Below are positions 1 through 62,119 of a stretch of 64,000 nucleotides of DNA, one piece after another. This DNA comes from Terebella lapidaria (Eukaryota; Annelida; Polychaeta; Terebellida; Terebellidae). The translations under genes were made by a program, and so were the position numbers. The stretch lies in the NCBI GenBank assembly GCA_949152475.1, contig OX424563.1, positions 14,853,001-14,917,000 of the forward strand. Direction: 5' to 3'. The notes beneath the pieces were generated by a model. The model saw only the letters and a list, made by a program, of their open reading frames with translations, searched no databases and was not told the DNA's origin. Numbering within the stretch: the first letter of the stretch is position 1; every line of letters begins with the position of its first letter.

Positions 1-86
1 CTACATCCAGGTACAATTCCATGTCGTCCAGTGTACTACTCTGGCGTCTGGCCGGGGGTAAAACCGGGGCTGTTCTCTGTGGCATC
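1..86 (-). CDS. Exon M of the adaptor, cut by window edge
   Basis: After a CTTAG acceptor at 88-87, 28 codons read in the frame expected from exon L: first MPQRTAPVLPPARR, then QSSTLDDMELYLDV. This gives another PxxP segment and another acidic tyrosine motif (YLDV). The exon continues past position 1, so its donor and the expected C-terminal domain are not visible. Confidence 0.6.
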
Positions 87-3000
87 TAAGGTTCATCATC
101 CATATATTATCAGTATGGGTCATGTGAATATTTTATAACGTAGGAAGGCACACACACAGTCGGATAGGATTCCTCGCACATATCCTGCAAAAGGTAAACA
201 GGCAGCAGTCCACAGAGTACGGCATCTGTAGATCTAGGAGAGAATATATTCAGCACGAGTAATCCCACACAAACAAATAAAACGTACAAGATATGAAGAA
301 GGACCGCAAATAAATCAACAGTGACCATCGAGTTCTTATCTTCAACATGTCCAGAAGACTCTCGACATTATGCATTATGTCATGTTTAATTTTCGTAAGT
401 AGTTTTCTGCATAGTCAACTCTATGTACGTATAATCACAGATAAATTTCTGTATAAAAATGAGCGTTACAAATTTAATCATTACATGTACTATGATAACT
501 ATGTTGATAATTTTCAAATACACAATGTACATTTTTTATTTTTTTTTTGTCATTTTTTTTTTCATTATGACTTGAAAGGTACCGGTACATTGCACACTCT
601 GATGATTATTTTGTTAGACTAAGCATGTAATATTATATATTTACTTGCTGCATGTTGAATATCAAAGTTAATGTCATATTTGATCATCTGAATAGTTTCA
701 GTATTAGTACTTGTATCAGAAAATTTCATACTTTATATTAGCAGCATATTGTTTTCTCATTTTTATGTTGATTATTGTTGACCATTGTAATTATGATCAC
801 GACGAAGCCTTGATGAAACTGCTAGGATCACGTTTGCTAAAAGCATAGCGTCCAAATTATGATCTAATTTCTATCAATTTATCTATTTCTATTGTAACAT
901 AAAAAGCATGAGGTAAGTCCAGCAGTAGACTGATGCAAACGAAACGAAGCACACAAGTTATCTGAGTGTTAGTGCTTGCAGTAATTGCTTCTCTCAGACA
1001 AGACATATTAGGTATATGGAACACTCCTTGAGATATGGTTCATCAAAATTCACATAATGTAGTTATTTTTTTTGGCAAAACATGTAAAATATCGCTGTTG
1101 GAACTCAAAGGAAGCAAAAAATCAGTTTCACGGCACATGTGCACAAGGATCTCCGAAAATAACTAAAAGTCTGATCTAAACCTACAGAAGGAAAGCAGGA
1201 TTAACAAGCTTAATAACTCTGCAGCAGTCTAGCATTCAGGTTAGAGATTGTATCGCTATGACAACCTGTCTGTGGGATGGAGTGGTGTCATCCTCGGGGC
1301 ACAAATAAGCCTCCTCAGGCTCCTCGTGGCGGGGCGGGGGTGCAGCAGCCCGGCCTCCCTGAGACCATCGATATAGTGAATATCAGTCAAACATATTGGA
1401 TCAGGGATGGCGGGGGGGACGGGTGGGGGAGCACTTAAAGCTCAAAAATTACCCCAAGCTGAGAAATAATTTTAAATTCTTTGCTAATGACCATGCAATT
1501 TTATTTTACTCTTTTTCTGCTGGAGAAAAATATTATCATCTGTGTCACGTGATCAAATATTTCTAAGAACAACGAACACCCAGCCCTGTAAAAACGAGAC
1601 ATTATGCTGGGCACGTTGCAGGCACCTGTCTGGAAGGTGTGGGAGGCGGTAGGTCCTCCTCCGGGCACAGATAGTCCTCCTGGGGGTCGGGCGCGGGGGG
1701 TGGGGGCAGGACGCGGCCCTGACAACACAAACAAATCACCTAACATGACCTGTCAAGCATGTCTCATCGGAAATGATGAAATCAGTTACCAGAGAACTCT
1801 AAATTTGGTTAAGTAACATATATTTATGTACTGGTACTATATACCAACTGTCACCAAAGAAGACCATAATATAGGAGCAGGATAAAGCTGAACCCGACCA
1901 GGAACATGTACACAGGTATTTGATAAGACAAAGAGAAATGCATTGCACCTGAACCTCATCATGCATATTCATGACACCGGAAATAAAATCTGAACATGCT
2001 AAAGTAAATGCAAATATCATGTTCACCCATAACTGAAACTGCCAAATTCACAGTCCAAAGTTACCCAACTTGTTATGGTAGAGTAGACTTCCTAAGGCAA
2101 AATGTGCCAAACTTAGATTGCACCGATATAGGGTGAACGGAGGCAAACTGTGTCAAACTTACACTAGGCCACAGTGGTAAGGTAGATCGGGGCAAAATGT
2201 GCCAGACTTAGCCTGGGCTGTGTTTGTAGGGTATACTGGAGAAAACTGTGCCAGACTTACCCTGAGCTGTGTTTGTAGGGTATACTGGAGCAAACTGTGC
2301 CAGACTTACCCTGGGATGTGTTCGTAGGATATACTGGAGAAAACTGTCCCAAACTTGCCCTGGGCTGTGTTTGTAGGGTATACTGGAGCAAACTGTGCCA
2401 GACTTAGCCTGGGTTGTGTTGTAGGGTATACTGGAGCAAACTGTGCCAGACTTACCCTGGGCTGTGTTTGTAGGGTATACTGGAGCAAACTGTGCCAGAC
2501 TTTAGCCTGGGATGTGTTTGTAGGGTATACTGGAGCAAACTGTGCCAGACTTTAGCCTGGGCTGTGTTTGTAGGGTATACTGGAGCAAACTGTGCCAGAC
2601 TTACCCTGGGCTGTGTGTGTAGGGTATACTGGAGCAAACTGTGCCAGACTAGCCTGGGCTGTGTGTGTAGGGTATACTGGAGCGAACTGTGCCAGACTTA
2701 GCCTGGGCTGTGTTTGTAAGGTATACTGGAGCAAACTGTGCCAGACTTTAGCCTGGGCTGTGTTTGTAGGGTACCTTATTTATTCAATTAGTTCGAACAG
2801 CTAAAAATAATTAAATTTTGAAATGTTCGAATTATTAGATTCACGATAAAATCGTCCGTCAAAACGGAAAAAAAATTAGCCCAAGGGCTAAGATAGGTTA
2901 CCGGACAACTTTAGTTGAAACAGGACAGGTGAGATATGACGTTCAGATTAACCAATCATCTTCGTGAACTTCAACGTCATCATTAAGTGTGCAGCATATA

Positions 3001-6000
3001 ACATTGTATTCATGTATGTTCAAAATACAAATACAAGGTCTATCTACAAGTCTTTTGTCTATAGACGTAATTTACACATTTGACACTGAGATATAGAACT
3101 CAATGTCATCTGACATCAAGTTCAAGGTCACCAAAAAAAGCCACATATACATGAGGCCAATTTACACACTCAAGGGGCCTTTTAAGCAATTCAAAGCACT
3201 CCATCTTTATACACAATGTCAGGGACCCCAATTTGCATGTTTTATAACAAAAATCTCAAAACTGATCAGATAAATTTGAAGGAAAACAACCATAAATTAA
3301 ACTTATTTAGGCCTATTCAGCCTAAATTTCGAGCCTTTTGAGCAATTCAAGGCACTGTATACACTATGTACATATAATACACAATGTCAAAAACCCCAAT
3401 TACTATGTTTTGAAATAAAAATCTCAAAAGTGATCAGACAGTTTTCGATTAAAGACAAACAAGGTACAAATTTGGGCATTTTTCGACTCAAAAATGGCTG
3501 TTTTGACCTTCAAGGTCATCCAAGGTCAAATTCAAGGTCACAACACAAGTCGCCATATATGACTTCCCATTTGAAAGTGCTAATTTCTAAGCTCTATCTT
3601 CAAGCGTTATACGAGTACAGTCCTGACAGCACCCATTATGAAGGTAAAAAGTGCCGAAAAGTCCAAAATTTTTTTCAAAGGGTGAAAAATTTTTTTGCCT
3701 AGAAATGGCCCAAAATGGATAGTAACGCGATTTGGGGCAAAAAAAAATCTTTTCGCTGACCCGTCAAAAATTCAAAATGGCCGCCACACGCAGACCGGCG
3801 ATTCAAGGGCAACAAAACATATATACATCATAAAGGTATATAGGGGGAATCTTCCGAAACAAAAATCTCAAAACTTATCAGACAGTTTTCGAGAAAAGAC
3901 AGAAAAGCTACAAATTTGGGCATTTTTCGACCCAAAAATGGCTGTTTTGACCTTTCAAGGTCATCCAAGGTCAAATTCAAGGTCACCACACAAGTCGCCA
4001 TATATGACTTCCCATTTGAAAGTGCCAATATCTAAGCTCTATCTTTAAGCATTCTATGAGTACAGTCCCAGCAGCTCCCATTATGAAGGAAAAAAGTGGC
4101 GAAAATTTGTTAAGTCCAAAATTTTGTTCAAAGGGTGAAAAAATTTTTTTTGCCTAGAAATGGCCCAAAATGGATAGTAACGCGATTTGGGGCAAACAAA
4201 TTTTTTTCGCCGACCCGTCAAAAATTCAAAATGGCCGCCACACGGAGACCGGCGATTCAAGGGCAACAAAACTTATACACATCATAAAGGTACATAAGGG
4301 GAATCTTTTGAAACAAAAATCTCAAATCTTATCAGACAGTTTTTGAGAAAATGGCTGCCAAAGTCCAAAATTGCCCATTTTTCGTCAAAAATGGCCGCCA
4401 TTTTGAGAAAAATGCGAAAATCAAAAAACTAAGAAAAAACCCCTTCTTGAAATATTTTTAGGCATTTTTGTGCAAAATTTCAGAAAAATCCGCCTGTAAA
4501 CTTTAAAGATACAGCTGTGGACGGACGACGGACGGACGACGGACGCAACGTGACGGCAATAGGTTATCGGACCATAGGTCCGGTAACCTAAAAACGCAAA
4601 CCCAGATTTATCATAGAGTCTATGCGGGTTGACAGATACCGTTCATCACGATGGTTGGAACTAGGGCTTGTACTGTACGATTGATAGGTTAACCGCAGAC
4701 AACTAGCATTTTTAGAAAACTCGAATAACTGGCTGCTAAATCGCCCGGTAATTGTTGTTTATAATCCCACATTGATACTAAATTCTAGTCATATTGCATG
4801 TGCAATCAAGTCACTCGAATCGGAAAAACTTCGCAAACCGCCTGGCACTCTGAGGTCCGCGCTTTCAATATTTCTGCTCACATCATAGAGGTACATTATG
4901 AGCCCGGCTCATATTGGTAATTGCAAACACTGCCACCTGACGAATATATCGCTGATTACTCATTTCGTAGTGGTGCCGCCTGGTGAGTGGTCAGTTTTGG
5001 CATCTGACAAGTTGGTTTTCGTCGTTGTTTCAATCGAAATTTTGATCGCAAATTTGCCTGTTCGAACTAAACGAGTCAGTTCGAAAATTATTGTCTTCAA
5101 TAATTTTTGGTGTTCGAATTATTAGAGTGTTCGAACTAATTGAATAAATACGGTATACTGGAGCAAACTGTGCCAGACTTTAGCCTGGGCTGTGTTTGTA
5201 TGGTATACTGGAGCAAACTGTGCCAGACTTTAGCCTGGGCTGTGTATGTAGGGTATACTTGAGCAAACTGTGCCAGACTTGCCCTGGGCTGTGTTTGCAG
5301 AGAATACTGGAGCAAACTGTGCCAGACTTACCCTGGGCTGTGGTGGTTGTGGTGGGAATTCATCAGCCTCTGTGTAAACCTCGCCTTCGTCATCATCCTG
5401 AAAATACATCTCACTGCTGTAGTCTATATTGTTCATCGACTGATCCACACATGATTTATACAACAACCATATCTTATGATATATGAAGCATTCTGATTTG
5501 AATTTTTCTATGATTTACACACCATAATTTGCAGATGTATTCATAGATACTGGTGCCCAGTAGCATGAGTAGATGTACAATTTTTCACATTATTTCATAA
5601 GGACATCATCAGAAATTTATCACTATCTTATCTCTGTTGACATTAGTCATCTTGACAGATCCTTGAACATAAACACCTTGATCAATGTTGATACTGAAAG
5701 TAATAATCAAGCACAACTTTTTTTCTTTTTTTAAGTCACTTCAGACCTATTGATTGGAGCCTAATTATCACTGGTATAGTTATCCCCCTCAGATAAAAAC
5801 CCCCTCAATAACGACTGCTCCTCATTAAATACATTTTTGTGTAGCGTCATGACATGTAAAGTTTAACATGTACATGTAAGGAGCCCCTCTGATAAAACAT
5901 CCAATCAGATAAGGCCAATATTTGCAGCAGGGTACATGTAAATATTATCTCAGGTGGACAACTGTACATCTATGTTCTTACGTCAAAATATTTGTGTAAA

Positions 6001-9000
6001 TTTACTTCTTCCCTATTACTTGGTAAAATGGTAATTAGTCCAATTCACAATGAACACTATACTTCCACTACAGATCATACATACAGATGCCATCATTTTG
6101 TCATACTGTCATGAATTTTTCAAAATCATTCACCGGTTTTGTATTATGACAGTGTTGATGTAGAATAACATTTGTGTGCTCATATTCACAAGAAATTTTT
6201 TTGCTTGTACATAAGTGCAATTAAAGGAAGGTGCTCTGGAATTGTATCTATCAAACACACAGGATTCAAGTGAAAACGGGTGGAAAGACACACAGATTTT
6301 ATATACATGTACATCCTAAAGGGCTATGTATTTACAGTAGATAATGTGTGATACATGGGGGAAAAAAACACATACATGTATAAACAATTAACGCGAGTAA
6401 AGGTCAGTATTTCTACGGATATTTACTGGCCGTGCATCAGGTTCTTCATAATCCTCATCATCCTGATCCTAGATTACAACAGAGACCATTTCTATTCTTT
6501 CAATATGATCAGAGATGAGGTGAAATACCATATATTGTATATTGTTCAAATAATTTTATTTCATTTTTCATTCAAATAAATGTTTGGTTGACTGAAATTT
6601 CTCAACAATAATACCACACAAACAGTAATGTTAAAACTTCCGCTGGTTTTATTGCAAGGTATGAATTAATCGCTGAATTCAGTATAATCTACATACATAT
6701 TTACAATGTATGATGCGTGTCAAGACATTGTAACAATTCAACAGAAAACCAAATAGCCTCTTGTCATAAATCCCATGCAAAATTTCCTACAATTACGTAA
6801 CCTGAACTGATGCAATCGTGTCAATATTTGAGAATTTGCTGGGTCATATTTACGAAGCTACACACCTCGGTCTGGAAGTTCTGCTGTCGGGCTGGGGTAT
6901 GCGGGGCGTTCATGTGCGATATTCTTGATGTTTCCACCGGCTCCATGTACTCTTCCGTGGGACTATCGTCATCGTAGCTCTGCATATACGTACAGAAACA
7001 TGTCATGTAGTATACAGTAACTCTACCACTGATCACTACACCTACAACTTAATCCAGTGGTATATGAGCCTGAGCAAACATCTCTATACCAGCTCAAAGT
7101 CCAAGCACAAGTCAATTGAAAATCTATCAACTGGATCCATACATTCACAGAACTTTGCCCATTTACGAGATTATCTTTCCTTTGGTTATAATACATGTGT
7201 ATTTATATTACATGTAGTTCAATTTTCATTTTTGAGAGAGAAAAATTAAAAACTTACAGTACCAATTTCGCGAAACCTCACCAAAATGCTAGCACGCTGA
7301 ACCTGGCATTAGCATGTGCTAGCCCAACTTCGCCTGGCATCATGCAATTTGATGATAGCATCGTGTGTGTGAACATCACCCGATGCTAGCATTGCTCCTT
7401 GACACTGTGGCACACTAAACGCATTTCGCATTTTTTGTGAAGGCCTTTACATGCTTGTATATGCTCTGTATTATGTACATCGTATGGGCCAATGCAGTGT
7501 TTAAGTTCAGTTCATATTATAGTCTGTATTTGCGTCCAAGATAAAGGATGCGAGAATCTGTGTGAGACAATGCTCGCCTGTTCAACTAAGATGGCCGTCT
7601 GATGCGATGGCTCGATTGCGCCCACTGGTCGCACCATGCGAGTTGATGCTAGCATCAAGTCGCACATAATCACACGAGCTAGTAATTAGCATGTAGCATT
7701 CGCATGACTAGCGAGGTCTTGCGAAATCAGTACTGTAATCACAATATCTCATTCAGGTATATGATTTACAAAATTTGACATGACTTACAAATGGTAAGAT
7801 TACAGTTGTCATGGTTACTAAGACTGACCTGGTTCCTGGGTGGGGCTGGCACAGCTACCGGTTTTGCCGCGGGTCCTCTCCTGCCCCCGGGGGGCAGTGG
7901 TACACTACGTGACGGAGGCGGCTGTCAACCAAAACAACAAGTGTCCGCAATACTTAACAAACAGGCCAAATCATGATACAATAGCATGATAAAATGTACT
8001 TGTTTAAGTTGTTTATTCCTGAGATTTGGACTCAATACATTGTACATGTGCTGATACAGTTAATATTGACGTGGACATTCAAATTGTAAATCATTTGTTA
8101 TCATATGAACATTTTGGGAATTTTTTGGCCAACCGCATTTTGATTCGCAAATATATTTAATATTGAGCCATCCCGGAATGTCAGTAGCCAATGAGCATGG
8201 CTTAATTGGCTGTTGATTCGGAAATTGACTTTGCAATGTATGTGGTATAAAACAGAAGAACAAATAATATTGTATAATTAACATAACAAGACCAGTAGCC
8301 AATTCCGAGTTAACATGTACGTAGTCATTCTGTACTGTAACTGTTTGTAGTCAATTCATGATTACTAAGCAATAAAGATATAATAGATATATAAATATAT
8401 AATAAAAATACAAGTGAGTTCATGCCAGTACATTGCCAATTGTTGAACTGCTTAGTGAGAATGCTATTGGAAAATACCTCTGTAATCATGGTAATGCGTT
8501 ACCAGTAAAATGCATGTTAAAGAAAACGCGAAATTAAACGGCCGCGAATATGTCCAAATCCTGAAAACGCGAAATTAAACGGCCGCGAAATTAAAGGGGT
8601 TTGCAGTAACCAATTATACCAAAACCGGCCATGCATACATGTGTTAGATATATATCGTGACACAGCTACGGAAGAACATGGTGCATGAAGTGGACATACA
8701 GCTGAAGTTGGAACACATTCCTGATTGCATCAGCAGAGGCTACATGTACATTCATAATTCAGACTTTCAAGTAACCAGGACGGCGACAATTATGCGTCAG
8801 TAAAGCCACATGACCCAAAGTTTCCCCGGCTTCTTTCCGAAACTGAAACCGATACCTTGACTTCTTCTTCCTCGAGGGCCTCATACTCCTCGCTATCTGA
8901 GTCGGGAACGGGGGGCGGGGGTCTCACACCCCTAGGTGGTAACCGTGGCGATGCAATGGGCTGGGTAACAGGCTACCATCAGACAAGCAAGAGAAAGCGG

Positions 9001-12000
9001 AATAGTTAGTAAAGGTGTTGTTTTTACACGGAAGGGTGAAAAGTGAAGCATTTTTGTTTTACATTGTTGTTAATATCAAGCAATATCCATTTCACTTTGA
9101 AAAGTTATGGTTAATACAGTGATAATTCGCAAGACATTTGTACATGTATATACACATCAGGAAAAATAGTGTTAATGAATTCAAATAATGAAATCTCGAA
9201 AAGAATTATTACAACAGCAGAAGGGCATGTGAATGAGTACCCTAAATTTTTTGTCACTGATTTTGAACAGATTTTGAAAGCAAATTTTGCATTTTGCAAA
9301 AAATTTGCCGAAGATATTTTGTACCAACTGCACTCAGATAGAGACAGTACACGATTATATGGGTGTGACAGTGGTAGATTTTCAGTTCATGTACGGTAGG
9401 TACAAGATAATTGTCTACAACAATTGAAGCGCATTACAGTATAAAGCTGGGACATCTTGCCCATGTATGCAGCATTACCAGCTTACTATGTCATCAGAAT
9501 CCACAGCGTGTGTGACATTTCCGATAAATAGAAACTAGTGAATGGATGTATGCATAAAGCTCCAGGCACACCAATATGTACATGTATATTGTTCAGAATA
9601 AACAAGTGTTCATTTACAATATATCTGCGTATTTCATGCATTTGGGCATACATGTATCTAAATTCTGGGGTAGAGCATTTGCAAGATACCAGTACAATGC
9701 ATACCATATTGGTCCTAATGTTAACATATGCCCTTTATAGAAAAGCGCCCCTCTCTTTAGCAGAAAAATATTCTGTAATTGTCCATATTTTTCATTGCAG
9801 GGTCCTATATTGTTTTAAACTTAACTCTAGGTTATTTTTCATCAAATAAACTTATAAGAAGTATTATATGATTGATTTCCTTTGAATATCTCTAAAATTT
9901 TACCTATTATTTATGCGCACTAATGTTAAAAGTCTAGCATTAGAGCGTCCATATTCAAGTACGGTAGGACCAATACAGTTTGTTGATGTTTTTTTTTCCA
10001 ACAGAGATAATGCCATGATGTCAAATCCTCCAACGAGGTTTCATAACATATAATGTAACCATGGTTACGTAAGTTGGAAGTTCGGTAAATAATTTCAGAC
10101 TCATGCAAAGGAACTGACCTCTTCTACATCGAGTGCTTCATATGCCTCACAGGGCTCAGGCTCAGGGGTAGGTGGCAGACCGCGGGCCGGTAACCGTGGC
10201 GACCGGTCCGGCTTCAGGGTCTTAGCAGCAAAGCAGGTTATTATACAGCGAGGTGCATCAAAGCAAAAATATAGCTCGTGAGTAAATTGTTGCTTCGAGT
10301 ACATGAAGCAACTAGACGCTTCCGGTCGCCTACGACCGCTTGGGTGTATCCCCCGTAGCCCTATCATCCCTGTTGCCCCAAATATATCGCTGATGTACAT
10401 TGTGAGTGTGAAACCTTTCAAGCTTATTGAAGGTCGAATTCAAGATCACGAAATTACAGCCAGATAAAAGTTTTCACCTAAAGCTATATTTCAACTCAGA
10501 ATTTTTGACAAACTTGGTTCCAAGTTGCGAGATGACTAAATTGGAGCCAGATCGAACTTTTCACTATAAGTTATATTTCAACTCATACTATGTGCCAAAC
10601 TTGGTTCCAAGTTGAAATTCAAAGTAAAAGTTGACCAAAACTACATTTCAAGATGACGAAAGTGGAGCCAGATCAACTTTTAACCATAGTTTAAATTTTA
10701 ATTCATAATATGTGCCAAACTTGGTTTCAAGTTAAAATTCGAAGTAAAAATTTACTTTACTGGTAAAAATAATGTTAACTTATCCGGTTACACCCATGAA
10801 ATCTCTACTGGACAAAAATTTTAAATTGTTGAGCTCAATAATAAATGTTTCTTGTCTTAACTATTTTTCTTGAGGTCAATAATAGACTTAACTAGTAAAA
10901 ATGATGTTAACTTATTCGGCTACAGCCATGAAATCTCTACTGCACAGAAGCTTTACCTTGTTGAGCCCAATAATAAATGTTTCTTGTCTTAACTATTTTT
11001 ATTGTGGTCAATAATAGACTTAACTAGTAAAAATAATGTTAACTTATTCGGTTACACCTGTGAAATCTCTACTGGACAAAACCTTTACCTTGTTGAGCTC
11101 AATAATAAATGTTTCTCGTCTTAACTATTTTTATTGTGGTCAATAATAGACTTAACTAGTAAAACCAATGTTAACTTATTCAGTAATATTGTTCTTTTTT
11201 CACCAAAAACATCAGTTCTGTATTCTGAACAAGAATCCAATGCAATTTGCTTTCATAGTACAGGTTATTGGAGTGATCACACATGTCAAAGTAGGTATTT
11301 TAATTGTTGTAATAAGTTAACCTCTCAAACTTATTAATATTTATTCGATCATTCTGAAAAACAATAGGTTTCGTGTGATGGTCTTTCTCATTGAGCCTGT
11401 GCGATTTCATCATCATTCATTGAAAACTCCCACCCGTAGAGCGTTCACAACCCATGTGTGTTAAACAGGCTAATTTGAGCACAAAATGTTACGCCAATCG
11501 GCTATTTTGGTTGCTATGGCAACCAAAATCGATAGGTGTCCAGATCTCACCATAAGACATGTCCATATGAATTATTATCAAAATCGGTTCATATTTGCAA
11601 GCTGCAGCGCGTTCACAAGAAAGTGTCTGCGGACGCGGACGCGGACGCGGACGCGGCGGCGGCGGCGCGACGATCGTAAATCCATAGTATCCGCCGAACT
11701 TTGTTCGGGGGATACAATTAATCAGCGAATTATACAATGATCAACGGTTAATATATACTAAATGTACCCTGGTGTCATTGTAATAATTTGATTCAACGGA
11801 ATGTACCACTGTATACTAAGTTGTTTCTGAATATTTGACCAAATTATTGAACATTTACTGTGCCATTAGCAATATGTTTAAGATTGCAGGTCATGGAGTC
11901 ACAAATCACAATTGTAATTCACACAAAGCGAAACAGGAATATATTGTACACTGTACAAGCAAATTATATACAAAGCACAATCAGACAATCTTAATAGACA

Positions 12001-15000
12001 ACGCATTAGTTAAATTTTCTCCTTCACCAATTAATGTAGATAAAGAAGCCTTCCTTCATGGTTATGTACGGGGCAGAGTGCACCTTAATCTTGTCAATGG
12101 CAAATCCCTGAGACTGTCTGTTGAGGATACCTCACAGTCACAGTTCTGACAGATTTTCCTAAGGCATGGGTTTTCCTACTTTCACTCCCCCAAGATAGAG
12201 TCTGAACAAGGACAGGTTTTCCCAGTTTGACTCACCGCGGGGACACTTTGGGTTGGGGCGGCTGGTGGAGGGCGTCGGGACGGCGGGAGGTTTGGAGGTC
12301 CATTGTCACCAGGCAGAGGCGCAGGCTGGGCAAATATAGGTGTACATGTAAATATATATTATAAATATACTCATTATATGTTGCATTGAAAATATCATGC
12401 ATACTTCCATGGATGTGTAAGTGGAGAAATACAAGAATGCTATTGGTGTAATTTTCCGAAAATAATATCTGTAGCACTCAAGTTTCAACAGATGACAGTG
12501 CAGATTTACCAAAAAAATATGAATTTTCACCATTTTCACCTGTTTACAATTCAAATGCTGCATAATGTTAAAATTTTGGAAGAAATATATATCACACATT
12601 CCAATACTACCATTACGAAGAATCACTGGCAAATACATGTGACTTAACAGAGAGAAAATGGAGTAAAGGAGTAGGTTTAAGGCTGTACATGTATGTTAAC
12701 CACATTTATAGACATGATGAAATTTAAAATATCAGATACCGGTATTATCAAAGAGAAACCTTGAAATTTGAAAAACACGCAGGTTATATGTACACATGCT
12801 TGTACTTCATCTATTTTATTCAATTAACAAACAAAGTGACCAATAGGAGAATAGGAAATCTCGTTGGAATAATGAAGATTTTTTCAATGTAGAGGAATTG
12901 TAAAGGTCACATATTGTGTCATGTTATATATTTTTATACTTCTATGTTACAATCGTGTTAACTAAAATTACCTCTCTGCCTCGAGACTGAAACAACCAAG
13001 TCACTCGAATCATCGATAATACTCAACAAAATAATACACGATATACCCCTACAGGTCTGGTTATAGCTCATTGGCAAACACTCATGGCACAAGTAAACAT
13101 GAATCACAGAGGACCGGTAAAATCATAGGCTGGTCGATGGATGAAATACTATTAGGAACCATACTACCATTTCCTTCCAGAAATTCTTAGGACACTGGTT
13201 GATATCGACAGATGTAGCAACGGACTTTCAGCTATTGAGCTTAAGGATAAGTATTATTTTTTAAATGACAAGATCTCAAGAAAACACATACCCTGGAATC
13301 AGGCGGGGGTAGAGGAACTTCTCTGCGGCCCGGCATTGCTGTATCTGGAACACAAAGGGAAACATCAAGTGTTGTCAGAAGCTCGGCAATATTGTAGTAA
13401 TAGTCATCACCATTACAAGTATGATAACCCACTGTCTTGTGGTAAACTTGGCTAAACGTAATGAAGGTCATTAGCTTAATATTGGAGTGAAATTCTAACT
13501 CTAAAATCCTAATCTGTCTGCTGACTGATACATGCTTGATAATCTCATCATTTTGTCAGTACTATATTGGCCTGGTTGCTATTACATGTACACAGTTATA
13601 ATCTTCAATAGTTTTCGTCCCTCATACATCACATGCACGTTTACAGGTACACAGTTTGGAGTTTATGAATAATCATATTTATCTGGCCTGAACGGCAAAA
13701 GCAGAAACCGAAATCTATTGCATGATATTATATTGGGATTTTTACATTTTCAATAGTTTCTGCATGTGACACTGTGGGAAGTTATGCCTCTAGGAATGAA
13801 GCAGCTTAAAGTTAATATGGTATTGTTCTGATAGTGTAAGCTAGGCATTTATTTTACTGTGTACCGGTAAGCAGATTGAATGCAAAAAGTAACAAGAAAT
13901 ATCATTACCTTCCAACACATTTATAAGTGCAATGATATGCAGCCTCACGCATAGAACAATACATCATTTTTCCAAATACATGTGGGTAACTTCTCATTCG
14001 GAAAATAAGGAAGGAAACGAACTTCCTACATGTTATATATATCTATTATATATATATACAAGAACAATACCACTTCCCGCATAATATTATCCAATATTAA
14101 GCCATAGAACACGGTATTCTCCACATACTTCATACTACATAACATACACAAAGGTATCTGTACATAAGCACTGATCATAAATCATGTCTTTCCTCACAGG
14201 CCAGTTTACATCGATAGACTGACATTCCTACGTTTTATTCACTGTGTTATTCACTGAGTTGAAAATGCAAGGGGGTGTCCCATTACAGGTGGTCTCCATT
14301 CAACAGTCGTTTAGTAATTAGCAGATGGTCTTTAACCACATAATTCAGGAAGTGTAGAGCTATGACGTGTCCTTAATGATAATCAATAATTATAATAGCT
14401 ATAATAGAGATTCCGCAGATATTAGACGTATTATTATATACCCAAGTGAAATTTCCCTCTATTTTCAATGTAAAGCGAACATTCTGATAAGTTCCCTTAT
14501 CGGATCATCTATGTGCTGCAACGGCGGCTCTAAATGCTATTAAAACGAAAACTTCAGTGACGTAAATGTGGCTGAGACCATCTTGTTTATGAACAGGCTT
14601 GTTGACACTGAAAACAAGGGCCAAAATATCCTCTGAATTCAGGGAAATAACCACTATTTTATGAAAATGAACAAGTAATCATGTGAGGACATATAATAAT
14701 GAGGTAAACTCGTGCGACAAGAACTCGTGCCTCAAATCCGCTACACACATCAATAACCTTATATCATTGATTAGGAAAAATCAATAAACATGATGAGTAC
14801 TCACAAGATTTGTGAAGGATACATGTAAGTTGGTGATATTATCCGTACCCGTAGTGTTTCATGGATTATCCATCATTGATAGCCAACATGTACAATCATA
14901 TAATAGCTCCAGAGTGAGGTGCATGTAGCAAAAATGCACCTCACCAAAGTTTTCACTGTGATTTTGGTTATAAATCGTTAACATAAGACCCAGTATGCTC

Positions 15001-18000
15001 ACGTCATGGCTCTCCGAATAATCAAGTTGCACTTGTGTACCGTAAATCATGATTTAACCACTCATGCATGATTAGCACAGAATCATACCATATAATTATA
15101 AGCAAGTATACACACTAGACCTCAGATGTTCAACATGAACTCTATTCAACACATTGTCAGTTGTGATTTTACAGTCTAGTTCAATGAAAACTGTTCAATA
15201 TGCATACAAGCATTGATATCAACATTACATGTACATGTACTAAATCCTGATACACCATATACACGTATATATACATATACTCGCACCAGTACAACTTTAA
15301 AATATATTATACCATTGACGTCAACACCAGATCATATATTCCAAAAAAAAATGTAAATGTGAACTAATGTTTGCCCATGGTCACATATTGTACTGTATTA
15401 CAAGGTCCATACAATTATTGTCTCCATACAAATATCAAACGATGCTTACTCACACATGCAGAGCTAGTGCGGTTGGGGAGGTCAGATAGCTAGTTAGAAC
15501 ACGACACGATCCCATCAATATAGTCCACGATATATATGTGTAGCTCGGTAATTAGCACAGTCTATATGTCCTGTTCATGTCTTCAACTGGCCAACAGTAT
15601 GATTTTTTTTATTGTTATTGATCCTTAGTGTGTAACATAGGCATCATCCATTGCTGCATTCCCAATAATATTCAAAAGTCATGCATGAGAGTGCTGATAA
15701 ATTTGTATGTTGAAAACACTGTGGCTATGACTAGCAGTGTGGCTATGACTAGCATACCAACAGAGCCGGGCAATAAAGCAAGTCAGAAAAGAACACGTTA
15801 CGGTACATGCATACAATGTGCCACACAATGTCATGATATTATATCCGTCCAGTCAAGGCCATGGCATAGTAGTTTCACCAATGATCCAAGAAAATATTCA
15901 CTGGGGTTTTTGCACCATAGGAAGTTCGTGTACACAGTCATGATACGTGTAAAACTGACTCTAACTACATAAGTCTTGTACGTACAAACTTAGTACCCCC
16001 CTCCCCCCCCCCCCCCATTCTATCGATTGATCCTCTGTCACGTCAGCAGGACTCCACACACACACGACACAGGCACCTGAAGTTTGTACCAGGAAGTAGT
16101 TTCAAAATCATCCAAACCTAAACACTTGATAGCTCACATGGCATATATAGTTACGGTATTCTACCTATCATTATCTTGAAGGCAGATAACAAAGGACTTT
16201 TTCCCCCCTGCTAGGCACTTCACGTTTACTGATTACACCGTTATATCTACAAGTACATCAGAAGACGACAATGATAAGAAGTAATTGACTCCCGTGCAAG
16301 AACGTCAGGCCAGCGATTAATCACGGCGCATGAGTGAACAAATCAACTATCAAATACTTGAATGAGAGTAGTTACCAAATGACAGAAATCGGGTGTTGGA
16401 GAATCAACCAGGCGTGCTGTCCATTACATGTTATAAGGCCCATATTTTTTTGCACAATTGTTATGAATTCTGCAGGGACCTGCATTTACATGTAATTTAC
16501 TAACCTCATACCTCACACAAAGTAATATCGATCTCATAGACTCATACCACTCAAGATCCCGAAAGTTTTTCTATTGATAGGCTGACTGGTTACATATACG
16601 GTTAGTACTGTACACATATGTTGCCCATTGCACCCAAGGCCAAGTGCCACAGCGGCGGAATCACCCAGCACATGGACACATCCCGACACAATCCTTCTTC
16701 CGGGCCCGCCAACATTTCCACACGAGCCTGCCAGAGCCTGTTCACACATGGACAGTCTACACAAGCATGGACACAACCACAAGTTCCACTGACGTCGAAT
16801 ATTGAGTCCCCGAGGGCAAGTCTCACCGTCCCTCTCAGTACCTCACAGGAACTGACAAAAATCTGAGGCGTATTATTGAAATATGCCTCTCAAGAGGGAG
16901 GGAACATCAGAGCAGGGATTTACAGCGAAACTACTCTATGAAAAGAAAAGTTACCAAGGCATCACGCAATTTGAATGTGAAACTGCCAAGTATGGAGTTG
17001 AAATCGGGCCAAAACTCCTGTCTCATGTGAAGGCAAAATCACAGCATACAGTAATATTCATCAGATGATTAAATTGCCCAAATAGGCCCTAAATTCCACA
17101 AGTAATATCTCTTGAAGATATTTCCTACAACAGTCCCTTCTGTACAATTCTGTGTGATTGCCCAATTGTGTTGCACGAGGGTTTAGTTACCAGACCCCGT
17201 TAATAAGCCCACCCAATAATACCCCCTCGGCATATTTACGGAATAGCTTCCCGAAAATACGACCAGGGCGTATTTCACGTATATTTTAGTGCATTGTCAT
17301 AGACAATAATGACGTTACCACGTGAACATCACAAGCACGCATTTGTGCACGTGTATCAGATAATAATCAGGGGTTTTTTTTATAAATTAGATAAAATCTC
17401 ATGACATAATGCAGTCTTCGATGATTATGTTCCTACCAACAATCGCTTGTCTAAAACCTTATTCCGAAAATACGCCCATGGGCGTATTTTTCAAAGCGCT
17501 TTCATACTTATAAAAGGGACATTTCCCGTAAATACGCCCGGGGCTTATTAATTAACAGTGGCTCCCAATACTCAATTTCAACAGCGATACAGTTGCAGGC
17601 AAGCACGGTCGTGTATCGTGTATATAGCGCAACTGTGAAATACTACCACAGAACTGAAAGCTCCATTTCACCCTAAAAAAACCCTGTGCGCAGAGATTCA
17701 AAGAAGAAACCAACCAACACTTACCACTCATGAACACAGAAGCTGAGTTTAAATAAACATCATCCTCTAGTTCCAATTCCGCGATGGCTTGACTGGACAG
17801 CGCCACACTGTGACCACTGCCAGTACTACGCAGGCTGGTGGAGCTTGACCTATGGCTATGGTATCCTGAGTCCCGCAAGACTCCGCCCAGCGAGAAACTC
17901 CGGCATTGCTCTTCGCTCCATGAGTCCGAGGTCCCTTCCTGTGGCATGGACCAGCTCCTGCCGGCATTACGCAAGGATGGACCGCGTGTTACTTCACCGA

Positions 18001-21000
18001 TCTCCAGGTACTCGCTGTCACCAGATTCTTCTTGTTTCTTGGAGCTCTTTTGTCCCTTTTTCTTCGACGATGAATGACTTTTGCGTGATGAAGGCATGAT
18101 GTCAGCAAGTATGCTGAGGTTCGTGCTAAGAATTCTGGATTTTCAGTATGGAGTCCTTCCTTTTGCATCAATGGTCATAACTCAAAATTGACATTACGTG
18201 ATGCTCACGGGCACGAATCCATTGGGATATTTTTATCCTCTACACACACAGCTGGAACATGAATTATTTTCATGGGTGTTAGGGAACACTGTGTTTCATA
18301 AGCGTGCAAGAGTCTGAAGAAGACAATTTCTTCTGTGAATGTACGCTGCTCAACATAAGCCATGTAAATAAATACCTGAACAGACACGGTAACAAAACGT
18401 TCATAATACAATGTAAGACAGATTATCGCAGATAAGAGGCAAAGTTCATTGAAGTGGGTATTTTCACCCATAAAAATCGAAAAGCTGCAGGCACGAATCA
18501 GGTCACTTCAATGCCTGAGATGACACAGAAGTAAGGGTACTTGAGCTGCGGTTATCACTGCCGGATGAAGTTTGAGCGCTGAAGATCAAGATGCTATCAA
18601 TATTATCAGCTTTGTGTGTTTTCTTGAACTTCCGCATTGACCAGTTACACTTGGCAAACAATCAGGTCTATTTAAGTAGGCTGCACAAGTGGATGACGAA
18701 ATAATCTTTTTCTTCAGGCAGGCCATTTAAAGAGGCTGAACATTGCACATATCAATCTCGCACAGTGTACAATATTTTATGTGCATATGAATTACATATA
18801 GAATATTGTATAGTTGATGAATCACCTCTGCCGAAATCACCTTGACTTGGTTTGAGATTTTGAGACCACCTGCGCCAAATAAATTTACATGTAAGTCGGT
18901 TTCAGTTTTGATAACCAACCTGTCACAGATGACCATGCAACTGTTACATACCACAGTCTCTAACAGTATGCATGGAATGACCCAATTGTTTTAGTCAGAC
19001 TTTATATTGTATTACTGCAGGTCCTAAGATGAATTCAGATCAGTTCAATATACCTCATCCTTCCGCATGTTCAGGGGCGTATTCATGAATTTGGCCGACC
19101 CAGGTGTCTGGGGCCCAATCCAGAGGGCCAGATTGGAACCAGAGCATCTTTAATTAATGTTATTTGGTAGATTCTTGGCATCTGCTCACTATAAATTCCC
19201 ACAAACTCCCTCTAATTACCCTGTTCTCGAAAATATTTCAATCCTTGGTATCTTCAATCCCCGCCCCCTCCTCCCTGGATCCATCCATCAGCTTTACTGA
19301 TTTTTGGAGAAGCTATGCTGGTTGTTGTTACATTTTGGCATGGTATCCCGAGTGTCACGTGTGTCCGCTACATTGGACAGGTGTGCTGGGAGTCCAATTT
19401 TGGCCATGAAGGCTGAGAATTATCTACATTTGTACCTTTTGTTATTTTTCATATGCACATATGGCTGGGGATGCTTTGTGTTCTACTTATTTTAGCTAAG
19501 GATGCTGTGCGTTACACAGGTAGACAGTTAAAGGTATGTGTACTTACTGTGTCCAGGAATGCTTGGGACAGGTCTGGATTGTGCTGAGGGCTGTGTGGGC
19601 AACTCATCTGGTTCATTGTACTCAACTTCCTGTGGAACAATCGGAATACCGCTCAGTGAGGTATGTTAGGATAATGCAGCAATACTTTCATCCTCATCAT
19701 GCTATTATTGGGTCACATCAAAAACATCTCTTATGGGTTTCTAATCACATGGATTACAAACATGACCATGTCCCCAAATTAGCTAAGGATCCTAATGGGG
19801 TTTTTTGGATGGAACTTATAGAAGTCTGAAATTTGAATTTTGACACCCAGGTAAAGTATATCACGTGAATCATGTGAATACACCAACCTTCAATGAAGGA
19901 ATGGCAAAAATATACCTCAAACAGGTTTGAGGAATCTGACGATACACTCATTAACAAAGGTTTGTGTCCTCTTAGTTTCTCAGACCTGAAATATTTTACT
20001 TACCCCATCAGAATCAAAATCTCCAGCCCAAGCATCGAATTCATCATAGTCATCTTCCGGGTCTGAAAACAATCAGGTAATACGAATATTCAGTACATGC
20101 ACATGCATTCACGTCTCTAACATCTAAATAATAAAAATATTCATCATGATACAGTGGATCATGTGTTTTACGACCACCTGATGGGCCCCCAAAAAGTAGT
20201 CCCAACTGTCTAGGGCCGAGGAAATTGGTCTCTCATGCCAGGTGGTCTTTCATAACAGGTGGTCTAGGATCTACTGTATTATGACACAGGATATAGAATT
20301 TATGCTGGATGCAAAGAGCTTATTATACTGACTGTGGGCTGCTTCTGTTCCTCCCAAACCCACGGGTACTGGCGGTGGTGCTCTCTGGTGCACGCTGAAA
20401 CAGACAACCAACACACCCCGTCATTGGGAATGCATCAACAGTCAGGGTAACAACTGGTACATTATGATTGATATGGCACTTAGAGTATGTGTACATTATG
20501 ATTGAGAAAATTCCTCAATTAGCTGAACATTATAAATTACAGCATATCATCAGTATTAATATGTTGTTACTGAATATCAAAGCACATATAACTGATAATT
20601 TGTAAATATGTTTTGTTTTGTCACCTTGACATGTTTTTCACACACTAAATGTATAATAGCACTTAGGCCCATGTATTTAGAGGATTTATCCAAATTGTGC
20701 ACAATGTAACATCTCGCATACAAAATAAGAGTTCAAATAAATTTACTGCTGCAAAAAGCACCACTTTGCTACAGTTGTATATGATTCTCGTATCACGATG
20801 GCAAACAGTACACAAAGATCACCTGTTGAAGGACTCAGCCAGCCCTGCCAGAGAACCACGACTACCCTTCGACTCTCGACTCATGCTTATAGTCGAGAAT
20901 GGTTTAATCAGCTGTTTGCTTAGTTTTTTCAGGGCTTTTTTGCTCCAGGTTTTAGTTTTTTTGGGAGCCGCGACGGGCATGTGGTGCGGCCCGATCTCCC

Positions 21001-21139
21001 CAGAAACCTCGCTGGAACTGTCGCTGTTCCGTGTGATGCTGTGCTCGGCGCTCTGGTCTTCATCATAAGCGAGGATAACGAAGTCAGAAAAACTCCCGTT
21101 AGACGACAGGTCTGAGGGAAAAGTGTCACTTGTTGTCAT
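1..21139 (-). CDS. BLNK/SLP-76-like tyrosine- and proline-rich adaptor, multi-exon, 3' end off window
   Basis: Fifteen exons join in one open frame on the minus strand: 21139-20823, 20394-20333, 20062-20004, 19629-19548, 13344-13292, 12325-12236, 10220-10119, 8960-8856, 7921-7829, 6979-6866, 6468-6427, 5397-5332, 1718-1626, 1358-1266 and 86-1 (partial). That gives about 485 residues so far. Each junction has AG/GT and matching phase. The product has a basic, Ser-rich N-terminus, then a stretch with APPPVP, DDYDEFDAWAGDFDSD and EYNEPDE. This resembles the APPSVP...WSDDFDSDYENPDE region of vertebrate BLNK. Repeated PxxP segments and tyrosine motifs YEAL (twice), YMEP, YEEP, YTEA, YLCP (twice) and YLDV follow. 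BLNK and SLP-76 are cytosolic scaffolds that bind SH2 and SH3 proteins after tyrosine phosphorylation and end in an SH2 domain. That domain would lie beyond the left edge, so the family call is an inference; another multi-tyrosine scaffold remains possible. Confidence 0.72.
87..1265. other. Intron of the adaptor, no feature seen
   Basis: A+T-rich intron between exons M and L. Both strands have only short chance ORFs. No repeat, exon or RNA gene was recognised. Confidence 0.5.
1266..1718 (-). CDS. Exons K and L: duplicated YLCPE cassettes
   Basis: Exons 1718-1626 and 1358-1266 are both 93 nt (31 residues) and phase 0 at both ends. They encode matching layouts: a Pro-rich start (GRVLPPPPAP or GGRAAAPPPR), an acidic middle, then DYLCPEEDL or AYLCPEDDT, and a TPSRQ or PSHRQ end. 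Equal length, order and phase show a recent exon duplication. The donor of the second exon (GTTGTC) is weak, so it may be alternatively used. Confidence 0.72.
2774..5153. mobile_element. TA-flanked DNA transposon (Tc1/mariner-like, non-autonomous) in the minisatellite
   Basis: The ends are inverted repeats of about 26 bp: CCTTATTTATTCAATTAG at the left, and the same with one change (CCG) at the right, both continuing TTCGAACA. A TA duplication flanks it (2772-2773 and 5154-5155), and minisatellite units resume on both sides. No transposase ORF is present. A TA target fits the Tc1/mariner/pogo superfamily. A tandem-core element (2877-4592) occupies most of its interior. Confidence 0.75.
2877..4592. 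mobile_element. P1-type tandem-core element, degenerate copy
   Basis: It starts TTAGCCCAAGGGCTAA after an A-run and ends with the palindrome-like GGACCATAGGTCCGGTAACC then CTAAAAA. Before the end is a (GACG)n microsatellite. About two diverged core repeats with TCAAGGTCA words lie between. Subterminal palindromes, core repeats and an ACGG-type microsatellite are the layout described for pearl elements and Helentron-associated repeats. No coding capacity is seen. Confidence 0.65.
5332..7921 (-). CDS. Exons G-J of the adaptor
   Basis: Four phase-0 exons: 7921-7829 (31 residues, Pro/Arg/Ala-rich), 6979-6866 (38 residues, starting SYDDDSPTEEYMEPVE), 6468-6427 (14 residues, DQDDEDYEEPDARP) and 5397-5332 (22 residues, acidic with VYTEADEF and ending PPQPPQPR). 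YMEP and YEEP follow the Y-acidic-x-hydrophobic/Pro form of Src-family and related SH2 ligands. The 42-nt exon is the least certain: its donor GTAAAT is weaker, though its acceptor is good. The last exon's 3' end is also the start of the minisatellite downstream. Confidence 0.7.
5398..6426. other. Intron of the adaptor, no feature seen
   Basis: Intron between exons J and I. A+T-rich with common TACATGTA words. No repeat structure or exon was recognised. Confidence 0.45.
7257..7735. mobile_element. MITE with CAGTACCAATTTCGC ends, TA target
   Basis: The left end CAGTACCAATTTCGCGAAAC and the inverted right end (CAGTACTGATTTCGCAAGAC) match at most positions. TA flanks both sides (7255-7256 and 7736-7737). 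The interior is rich in GCTAGC-like words and has no coding capacity. It sits in the adaptor intron between exons G and H. Confidence 0.65.
8516..8605. repeat. Short direct repeat of AAACGCGAAATTAAACGGCC
   Basis: Two copies, 41 bp apart, of a GCGAAATTAAACGGCCGCGAA-type word lie at about 8524 and 8565. It resembles the ends of MITEs that carry CGCGAAATTAAA, but no partner end was identified. The rest of the intron 7922-8855 shows nothing else. Confidence 0.4.
8856..10220 (-). CDS. Exons E and F: paired SPRLP...YEAL cassettes
   Basis: Exons 10220-10119 (34 residues) and 8960-8856 (35 residues) are diverged copies of one cassette. Each carries SPRLP-x-RG, a Pro-rich middle (PPTPEPEP or RPPPPVPDS), then YEAL followed by an acidic tail (DVEE or EEEEVK). 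Both are exact multiples of three and in phase 0 at both ends. They look like a tandem exon duplication that repeats an SH3 ligand together with a phosphotyrosine site. Confidence 0.75.
9709..9973. mobile_element. MITE, TTGGTCCTA family, copy 1
   Basis: TTGGTCCTAATG at the left and an inverted TTGGTCCTA at the right, flanked by TA. Two more copies at 37004 and 37425 share ends and interior words such as TCCTATATTG. It is 265 bp long and non-coding. Confidence 0.6.
10316..11725. mobile_element. P3 tandem-core element, copy 1
   Basis: The left end reads CTAGACGCTTCCGGTCGCC, followed by a CGGTCG/CGACCG hairpin and GTATCCCCCG. Core repeats follow, first of about 118 bp and then about 130 bp (TTAACTTATTCGG, TTGAGCTCAATAATAAATG). 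A GTTGCTATGGCAACC palindrome, a (GGACGC)n microsatellite and a terminal hairpin, GTATCCGCCGAAC with GTTCGGGGGATAC, close it. The GTATCCCCCG word is inverted between the two ends. A longer copy lies at 25676-28040. It has no protein of its own. Confidence 0.7.
12236..13344 (-). CDS. Shared proline-rich exons C and D of the adaptor
   Basis: Exon 13344-13292 (18 residues including a split codon) reads TAMPGRREVPLPPPDSR, and exon 12325-12236 (30 residues) reads PAPLPGDNGPPNLPPSRR then PPPAAP. Donors are GTATGT and GTGAGT. Both exons end in phase 0. They encode little except PxxP ligands flanked by arginine, typical of SH3-binding linkers. The intron between them shows no clear repeat. Confidence 0.72.
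16601..16830. repeat. GC-rich dispersed repeat, copy 1
   Basis: The segment around ACCCAAGGCCAAGTGCCACAG matches 46950-47160 (ACCCAAGGCCAGGAGCCACAG), with TGTACxCATATGTT before it in both. The two copies are diverged and unlike the surrounding A+T-rich DNA. The family is unknown. In the second copy a GGTTCTATCC word on the reverse strand could be a tRNA-like B box, so a SINE origin is possible. Confidence 0.4.
17200..17555. mobile_element. MITE with TTAATAAGCCC ends and an inner perfect palindrome
   Basis: TTAATAAGCCC at the left is mirrored by GGGCTTATTAA at the right. The next inner words (CATATTTACGGAA and GCGTATTTACGGGAA) also match in inverted order. Inside, 17467-17490 is a perfect 24-bp palindrome centred on GCCCATGGGC. 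TTAA at both borders could be the target duplication of a piggyBac-like element, but the boundary is uncertain. Confidence 0.5.
17725..18097 (-). CDS. Alternative first exon (B1) of the BLNK-like adaptor
   Basis: An ATG-initiated open exon of 373 nt begins MPSSRKSHSSSKKKGQ and ends at a strong donor, AGTG|GTAAGT, in phase 1. Exon A4 ends in the same phase, so either can splice to the exon at 13344. The segment is basic and Ser-rich, then acidic, with tyrosines in SEYLEIGE, DSGYHSH and DDVYLNSAS. YLNS fits the YxN pattern read by Grb2-type SH2 domains. No acceptor with a pyrimidine tract is visible before the ATG, which favours a second promoter over an internal exon. The spliced product would be about 436 residues to the window edge. 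Confidence 0.62.
19548..20394 (-). CDS. Exons A2-A4 of the BLNK-like adaptor
   Basis: Three exons: 20394-20333, 20062-20004 and 19629-19548. They join in phases 2-1-0-1 and read through without a stop. A2 gives an SH3-ligand type segment (RAPPPVPVGLGG). A3 is acidic, with DDYDEFDAW and GDFDSDG. A4 opens with EVEYNEPDELP and ends in a Pro/Gln/Ser stretch. The W-x-x-DFDSD followed by Y-x-x-PDE arrangement is the best family evidence in the gene. Donors are GTCAGT, GTAAGT and GTAAGT, and the acceptors follow pyrimidine-rich tracts. Confidence 0.75.
20152..20276. mobile_element. 125-bp MITE, CAGTRGATC ends, TA target
   Basis: CAGTGGATC at the left and an inverted CAGTAGATCC at the right, with TA on each side. 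Inner ACCACCTG and CAGGTGGT words are also inverted, so it can fold on itself. It lies between exons A2 and A3 of the adaptor. Confidence 0.5.
20823..21139 (-). CDS. First coding exon (A1) of the BLNK-like adaptor
   Basis: This exon encodes 105 residues from ATG at 21139 and ends in phase 2 at CAG|GTGATC. It starts MTTSDTFPSD, is rich in Ser, Asp and Glu, has one early tyrosine in AYDEDQS, and carries a basic patch with KKTKTWSKKALKKLSKQL. No folded domain is recognisable. A similar basic LKK stretch precedes the first proline-rich segment of vertebrate BLNK. The ATG was chosen because no acceptor is visible just upstream and the next exon continues in frame. Confidence 0.7.
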
Positions 21140-47776: not shown

Positions 47777-48259
47777 ATGTCTGGAATAGCCTTCGGACGT
47801 CTTGGGGAAGAAAGGAAGGCATGGAGAAAAGACCACCCATTTGGATTTGTTGCGAGACCCACAAAGAACACCGATGGCACTCTGAACTTGATGAACTGGG
47901 AGTGTGCCATTCCCGGAAAGAAGGGCACTGGTTGGGAAGGTGGTCTGTACAAGCTGCGAATGCTTTTCAAGGATGACTACCCATCTTCACCACCAAAGTG
48001 TAAATTTGAGCCGCCATTGTTTCATCCCAATGTGTACCCGTCTGGGACAGTTTGCTTGTCGTTACTCGACGAAGAGAAGGACTGGAGACCAGCAGTCACA
48101 ATTAAACAGATCTTACTCGGAATACAGGAACTGTTGAACGAGCCAAATGTAAAAGATCCAGCCCAAGCTGAGGCGTACACAATTTACTGCCAGAACCGAG
48201 GCGAGTACGAGAGGCGTGTGCGGGAACAGGCCTTGAGATTCCGGGATCCCAGCATCTAA
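47777..48259 (+). CDS. UBE2I: SUMO-conjugating enzyme UBC9, complete single exon
   Basis: UBC9 takes activated SUMO from the SAE1/UBA2 E1 onto a catalytic cysteine and passes it to substrate lysines, mostly in the nucleus. The 160-residue product (human 158) reads as UBC9 throughout. It has the N-terminal helix with [12 protein letters not shown], the CAIPGKKG loop, the HPN motif at residues 83-85, the catalytic Cys93 in [10 protein letters not shown], then EEKDWRPA, and [15 protein letters not shown]. Lys14, Lys101 and Asp127 are kept. The start matches the family's MSGIA. There is no intron, whereas vertebrate UBE2I has several. No poly-A tail or target duplication is seen, and a promoter-like cluster lies upstream, so it looks functional; it may be the only copy or an old retrogene. 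EXOSC1 lies convergent downstream. Confidence 0.96.
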
Positions 48260-61000: not shown

Positions 61001-62119
61001 ATCCACGAAGGACATTTAGGTATCTCAAAATGTCAACTTTGAGCCAAGGAAAGTCTGTTCTGGCATGGTATGAGCAAGGACATCAGCCAGCACATCGGTG
61101 ATTGCCGTGAATGTCTCGTATATGCAAGAAGTCAGTCAACCGAGCCACTGTGTACTCGTGATGCACCGAGTGCTCCATGGCAAACCCTAGCGACTGATCT
61201 GTTCGAACTGGACAATGCACAATACCTGCTGGTAGTTGACAAATTCAGCAAGATGCCTTTTGTCAAGTGTCTCGGAAAAGACACCAAGTCCAGAACCGTC
61301 ATCCAGTATCTCGAGGAACTCTTCAGTGTCCATGGTTCCCCAATTATTCTTGAGTCGGACAATGGACCCCAATACTCATCACATGAGTTCAAGCAATTCA
61401 TGCAGGAATGGGATGTCCAGCACGTGACTAGTAGTCCTCACTACCCAAAGTCCAATGGCTTTGTTGAGAGGATGGTTGGAGTGATCAAACCCATCATTCG
61501 CAAAGCAATGATGTCACACTCAAGTGTACACATGGCACTCCTGACGTACCGATGCACTCCTCTTGACAACCATACCAAAAGCCCGGCTGAACTCCTGTTC
61601 AAACGCAGACTCGCCAACAGCCTGCCTCACAAGATAAGCACTGAACCTGATGACCTCACACATCATGAGCAACTGGTGGAAAGGTCTGCCAAAAGGAAGG
61701 AAAACCATGACAGTCACGCAGGTCCTGAGCTGACTGATCTCCTACCTGGGATGAAAGTCCTAGTGCAGGATGGTAAGAACTGGTTCCCTGCCACTGTCAA
61801 AAGCAAGTGTGCTGAGCCACGTTCTTACATCGTCACGACACCAAATGGACACGACATCCGGAGAAACCGCAAGTTTCTGAAAGAACTGTCTCCAACTGCA
61901 GCTGACAAGTTCGTGTTCCACACACCAGAAATGGTTCCAGATATTGGAAGTGACCATGATCCTGCTCCCCAAGTCAACAATCCTCCTCCAAAGTCGGTCC
62001 GGTTTGATGAGGGAAAAAACACTGTCCACATGATCCCTACTTCTGCTCCACTGGAAGTCCAACGGGTCAGACCGATCCGTACCAGAAGGTCACCTCAGAG
62101 ACTCATTGAGGAATTTTAA
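58058..62119 (+). CDS. gag-pol region of the Ty3/gypsy element (fossil, about one break)
   Basis: Domains in order: a gag part, two CCHC zinc knuckles, an aspartic protease site (ADTGSSGN), reverse transcriptase with the IADDIVVYG active-site box, RNase H (LEVDASQQGLGAAL), an integrase zinc-binding region, the integrase core with its acidic residues, and a C-terminal tail. The protease-RT-RNaseH-integrase order is that of Ty3/gypsy. Gag and pol appear to share a frame. As a whole it looks nearly intact, with about one break. Confidence 0.9.

Follow-up and report, generated by a model that had tools for sequence, protein, structure and literature searches.

Does the genome of an annelid, a group in which we know of no vertebrate-type lymphocytes, encode an adaptor of the kind through which human B and T cells relay their antigen-receptor signals, that is, BLNK or SLP-76? 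The question is raised by a locus of Terebella lapidaria that lies at the left end of a 64,000-nucleotide stretch of DNA (C9:14853001-14917000; hereafter the window) in a genome of 761.6 Mb and 438 contigs. A first-pass annotation of the window had claimed fifteen phase-compatible exons, and these are present on the minus strand between positions 21139 and 1, with AG/GT at their inner borders. After 60 kb of leftward sequence had been added (negative positions below), we found that the gene continues beyond the left window edge with 13 further exons, the last three of which encode an SH2 domain with a stop at -15497. The resulting hand-built model spans about 36.6 kb of the minus strand and comprises 28 exons with AG/GT inner borders and 2967 coding bases including the stop, which give 988 aa in a single reading frame. 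The modelled protein consists of acidic tyrosine motifs, a proline-rich linker and a C-terminal SH2 domain. We consider it likely that the locus encodes an annelid adaptor belonging to the SLP-76/BLNK/CLNK family that would serve as a multivalent, Syk-phosphorylated scaffold; within the family it is most likely closest to BLNK, as judged from sequence comparison.

All exons of the model lie on the minus strand. Exon 1 (20823..21139) starts with the ATG at 21139 and encodes a serine-rich and acidic part followed by a lysine-rich stretch. The start motifs quoted in the earlier annotation were readily located: RAPPPVP in exon 2 (20333..20394), WAGDFDSD, which fits the BLNK-like pattern W..DFDSD, in exon 3 (20004..20062; PEDDYDEFDAWAGDFDSDG), and YNEPDE in exon 4 (19548..19629), where it forms part of the YxxP-containing EVEYNEPDE. 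Exons 5 (13292..13344), 6 (12236..12325) and 9 (7829..7921) are proline-rich. Exons 7 (10119..10220) and 8 (8856..8972) resemble each other and combine PxxP with AYEALDVEE and EEYEALEEEE, respectively. Further tyrosines occur in exon 10 (6866..6979; YDDD and YMEP), exon 11 (6427..6468; DEDYEEP) and exon 12 (5332..5397; GEVYTEADE), and in a second pair of similar exons, 13 (1626..1718; EDYLCPEED) and 14 (1266..1358; EAYLCPEDD). Exon 15 (1..85) continues to -31 across the left window edge. It is followed, outside the window, by ten linker exons (16-18 and 20-26; -516 to -14338) with five linker tyrosines, and by three SH2 exons with the stop (-14556 to -15497, i.e. C9:14838444 down to 14837503). 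Intron 12 contains a 49-base tandem repeat that runs from the exon 12 donor (window 5152-5342 and 2192-2773) and whose two parts lie roughly 2.4 kb apart. Many of its units carry CCCAGG, and CCCAGGGTAAGT is found at four places, including the donor of exon 12; intron 12 therefore possesses spare donor-like sites.

Strict splice thresholds returned only three exon candidates and were then loosened. With the borders used here, the SH2 exons as well as exons 2, 14, 18 and 23 were outside the automatic list and were included after visual inspection or on the basis of the SH2 match, while exon 11 with its borders was absent from the loosened automatic list and present in another listing. The donor of exon 5 was shifted by one base, and the borders of exons 16 and 17 were set to keep the frame. 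Because the frame guided the choice of splice sites, the agreement in frame is not independent evidence for the model. Exons 8, 13, 14, 16, 17 and 21 have weak borders, in exons 8, 13 and 14 at the donor. A candidate exon 19 (-4470) was discarded, as it lacks a GT donor and would disrupt the frame with 20 bases. Between -5566 and -11019, exons may be missing from the model.

Weak splice sites and borders chosen to keep the frame are also what one would expect if the gene had decayed or if open segments had come together by chance. A scan for clusters of acidic-tyrosine or proline-rich open segments between splice-like sites, its criteria chosen in knowledge of the gene, returned 20 clusters along the 36.9 kb of the gene strand, compared to 2, 1, 4, 1 and 2 clusters on five control strands of 35-36.9 kb. 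Together with the intact 123-aa SH2 domain that extends across three exons, this leaves a decayed gene or chance assembly hardly credible, and a reading by chance or composition only was rejected on the scan and on the match of the SH2 domain.

The model also raises the question of where the gene begins. A possible alternative first exon, 1B (17725..18097), carries its own ATG, shares its end phase with exon 4 and can be spliced to exon 5 with the frame kept, which would give a 939-aa form without the BLNK-like start. The locus might thus harbor two neighbouring genes, one for a short acidic protein (exons 1-4) and one for an SH2 adaptor starting from exon 1B (18097), and the gap of 6.2 kb between exons 4 and 5 would fit such an arrangement, as does the fact that exon 1B ends in the phase that exon 5 needs. 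However, the phase of exon 4 fits exon 5 equally, the BLNK-like start in exons 2-4 belongs with a BLNK-type SH2 domain, and an alternative promoter accounts for both starts. We hence regard two genes as unlikely and keep the model of one SH2 adaptor gene that includes exons 1-4.

Human sequences other than PDB entries were typed by hand, not copied from a database entry, and a leftward search with such hand-typed SH2 domains detected a strong exon from -14923 on the strand of the gene. CLNK/MIST gave the strongest of the three matches (E 1.75e-10), followed by BLNK (E 6e-10) and SLP-76 as the weakest (E 3.6e-8). The flanking exons are weak when taken alone (E 0.088 for the first and 0.073 for the third), and the three exons together encode 123 residues in one frame up to the stop, with a Pfam SH2 match at 2.5e-13. 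The SH2 domain that had been predicted for the next exons leftward is thus there, and it is complete. In a PDB search covering the best 60 of 176 distinct matching sequences, the spliced domain matched the SH2 domain of BLNK best (2eo6; 65.9 bits, E 3.6e-17), 29.5 bits ahead of the second match, SHP2 (36.4 bits, E 4.8e-8); the SLP-76 SH2 domain was not among the matches listed. The modelled domain has FLVRDS as its phosphotyrosine-binding motif, and, among the five alignments listed, its VWNLKIR shares an asparagine with VYNIPVR of BLNK, at a position that is occupied by histidine in ABL and the N-terminal SH2 domain of SHP2.

Vice versa, the hand-typed human SH2 domains of BLNK and CLNK were used as queries against the whole genome, and only the best candidates were scored. 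Both queries returned this locus as the single match at E <= 0.001 (six candidates scored for BLNK, eight for CLNK). The SH2 domain of the locus itself retrieved the exons that encode it and, with a weaker score, a single place on C13 (35.7 bits). From these searches the relation looks reciprocal and the adaptor gene apparently single-copy, and the three-exon SH2 domain found as predicted, along with the BLNK and CLNK queries that return to the locus, supports its interpretation as a BLNK relative. A Pfam search of the genome gave at least 49 SH2 matches, and the split-exon SH2 domain described here was not among the matches listed, so that 49 is a lower bound and any absence of a SAM domain carries little weight. 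Correspondingly, SAM_1 and SAM_2 gave no match near the locus in a search that an exon-split domain can escape, as this SH2 domain did, and a hand-typed SAM domain reached a best E of 7 against 591 local fragments, a comparison in which a domain split by exons can likewise be missed. Elsewhere in the genome, three strong SH2 matches lie within 1.8 kb at C8:14268735-14270496 (L001-L003) and possibly belong to one multi-SH2 gene.

The N-terminus points in the same direction as the SH2 domain. The start typical of the BLNK subfamily (APPxVP ... W..DFDSD ... Y..PDE) is present, and residues 61-165 aligned to the hand-typed BLNK sequence with a score of 78, which was reached by none of 2000 whole shuffles and by 5 of 2000 local shuffles, in line with the BLNK-like start claimed at first. 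The score against hand-typed SLP-76 was 45 (reached by 64 of 2000 whole and 1159 of 2000 local shuffles), no better than local shuffles, and an SLP-76-type N-terminus was rejected. Proline-rich, acidic, tyrosine-bearing linkers can arise repeatedly, and the few local shuffles that did reach the BLNK score may be taken to mean that a different SH2 adaptor family came to resemble BLNK by composition only; moreover, the comparison of the SH2 domain covered solved structures, which leaves out families without one. The lead of the BLNK SH2 domain in the PDB and the return of both hand-typed queries to this locus speak against such a convergence, and we judge it very improbable compared to membership in the BLNK family.

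The linker itself has the acidic YxxP motifs ahead of the SH2 domain and the proline-rich stretch of SH3 ligands that mark the family. Outside the SH2 domain the model contains 17 tyrosines, 12 of them inside the window. Nine of the 17 carry a +3 proline (P = 0.0018, with proline making up 19% of the residues), and for 14 of them the residue at -2 is Asp or Glu. Proline motifs amount to 38 PxxP and three PxxxPR. The RxxK motif bound by the SH3 domains of Gads and Grb2 was not found in a proline context in the model, the only instance being RESK at residue 88 in a non-proline context; we regard RxxK as belonging to the SLP-76/Gads pair of vertebrates, and it is not known to define the family. 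Hand-typed human BLNK has 456 aa, seven tyrosines outside its SH2 domain and five YxxP, whereas the annelid model has 988 aa, 17 such tyrosines and nine YxxP; for hand-typed SLP-76 the figures are eight tyrosines outside the SH2 domain, three of them in the SAM region, and three YxxP. An earlier study counts four tyrosine phosphorylation motifs in SLP-76 (PMC5431462), and acid-flanked sites, as typically found in LAT and SLP-76, are described in another as preferred by ZAP-70 (PMC5889215).

How did the docking region become so large? The first-pass annotation had it stretched by exon duplication, and this applies to part of it. At the protein level, 6 of 300 pairs of linker exons beat all of 400 shuffles, with the adjacent pairs E7-E8 (z 8.8) and E13-E14 (z 8.3) at the top. 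At the DNA level, E13-E14 scored 46 against a maximum of 34 in 500 shuffles, and the score of 31 for E7-E8 equalled the best of 500 shuffles (31). The dN/dS ratio is lowest of the six frames in the coding frame for both pairs (0.19 for E7/E8, other frames down to 0.30; 0.18 for E13/E14, other frames 0.31 and 0.35), a pattern that, in exons this short, is evidence for selection on the protein but no proof of it. As so few pairs beat their shuffles and the DNA of E7/E8 only equals the best of them, duplication leaves most sites unexplained: it is supported at the protein level for the two adjacent pairs, and the enlarged tyrosine region most likely stems in part from exon duplication.

With BLNK/SLP-65 of jawed vertebrates, the annelid protein shares the three motifs of the start, YxxP sites, a proline-rich linker and the C-terminal SH2 domain that is its best PDB match. 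An acidic tyrosine region, a proline-rich region and a C-terminal SH2 domain are also common to SLP-76/LCP2, amphioxus bbslp76 and a sea star BLNK-like protein; these have an N-terminal SAM domain, in amphioxus along with a WW domain, whereas none was found in the annelid by a search that is weak for split exons. Published accounts describe a lamprey homologue of BLNK (PMC4850452), SAM, WW, proline-rich and SH2 regions in amphioxus slp76, compared with sequences from urchin and squirt (PMC5431462), and a sea star BLNK-like transcript encoding SAM and SH2 (PMC11593052). A 'lymphocyte cytosolic protein 2' is named in passing by proteomic studies of oyster (PMC4531390) and abalone (PMC5713207). 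Among the open-licence papers listed we found no description of an annelid BLNK/SLP-76-type gene, and we make no claim that it is undescribed. Since relatives from deuterostome invertebrates are in print (PMC5431462, PMC11593052), the finding is less surprising than it would otherwise be; the gene represents a known family in a form rich in tyrosines.

Are partners for such an adaptor encoded in the same genome? At 48.13 Mb of C3, pieces matching the hand-typed human Syk N-SH2, C-SH2 and kinase domains occur in that order, with 31-50% identity to Syk and an E of 2.4e-46 for the kinase. Shark-type kinases carry ankyrin repeats, for which the two SH2 regions, about 0.3 kb apart, lie too close, and we therefore read the gene as Syk-type; with the Syk SH2 pair as genome query, places on C8 and C13 obtained better E-values than the gene on C3. 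A Tec-type gene at 31.32 Mb of C2 shows a BTK motif (E 1.1e-4) as well as SH2 and kinase pieces, and Vav is mentioned for annelids in a published study (PMC6562523).

Family and genomic context suggest how the protein may work as a Syk-driven scaffold. A Syk-type kinase would phosphorylate the acid-flanked tyrosines of the linker, and the YxxP sites, once phosphorylated, would attract proteins with SH2 domains (Vav, Nck, PLC-gamma or Tec types). SH3 partners could be held by the proline motifs, and through its SH2 domain the scaffold would be anchored to a membrane partner that is itself phosphorylated. The expected output, in coelomocytes or similar cells, would be calcium and actin responses, and with its additional sites the scaffold may be more multivalent than its human counterparts.

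The occurrence of a BLNK-type adaptor together with Syk-type and Tec-type kinases in one protostome genome speaks for a relay of B- and T-cell receptors that is older than lymphocytes and older than the split between protostomes and deuterostomes. We tentatively go one step further, to a picture we hold somewhat less probable than its opposite. Annelid immune cells might run the whole module of Syk, BLNK-type scaffold and Tec; its docking sites would have been roughly doubled, by duplication and otherwise, so that the hub may gather complexes more strongly than SLP-76 or BLNK, and vertebrates would have taken their antigen-receptor relay from an ancient bilaterian phagocyte pathway. In any case, the many YxxP sites provide a natural experiment on how scaffold valency relates to signalling.

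The host was also characterized by its mitochondrial genome, C438 (15,973 bases), recognized by a COX1 match. Under the invertebrate code, its long frames share a single strand, and their order is nad4L, nad4, nad1, nad3, nad2, cox1, cox2, cox3, nad6, cob, atp6 and nad5, where nad2, nad6 and nad4L are the names we presume from recognition. Nine of the ten frames sent to Pfam matched consistently with their names; nad6 was without a match, and nad4L was left out. With tRNAs and rRNAs left aside, the clusters cox1-cox2, cox3-nad6-cob-atp6, nad5-nad4L-nad4, nad1 and nad3-nad2 are given as conserved among annelids in PMC2667193, and all of them are present in C438; fewer are retained in the sipunculan and the echiuran of that study. 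ARAGORN, run with the bacterial code, reported no mitochondrial tRNA. This annelid gene order, along with established knowledge of the group, agrees with the earlier description of the host as an animal without lymphocytes. A long TA-type simple repeat lies between atp6 and nad5 on the mitochondrial contig (L023, about 3200-3600).

On three small contigs of the assembly, C301, C68 and C417, there are E2-like frames that stay uninterrupted when TAA and TAG are read as Gln, as in the ciliate code, together with a second COX1 whose 717-aa frame includes a long insertion. These frames make a ciliate passenger in the sample likely. Within the window, positions 47777-48259 (+) encode in one uninterrupted frame a ubiquitin-conjugating enzyme, which we take to be Ubc9-like. 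As the genome contains no other close copy (the next has 43% identity), a retrocopy may have replaced the intron-bearing gene. Further to the right, the window contains retroelement frames at 58058-61042 (+) and 61070-62119 (+), with reverse transcriptase and RNase H followed by integrase.
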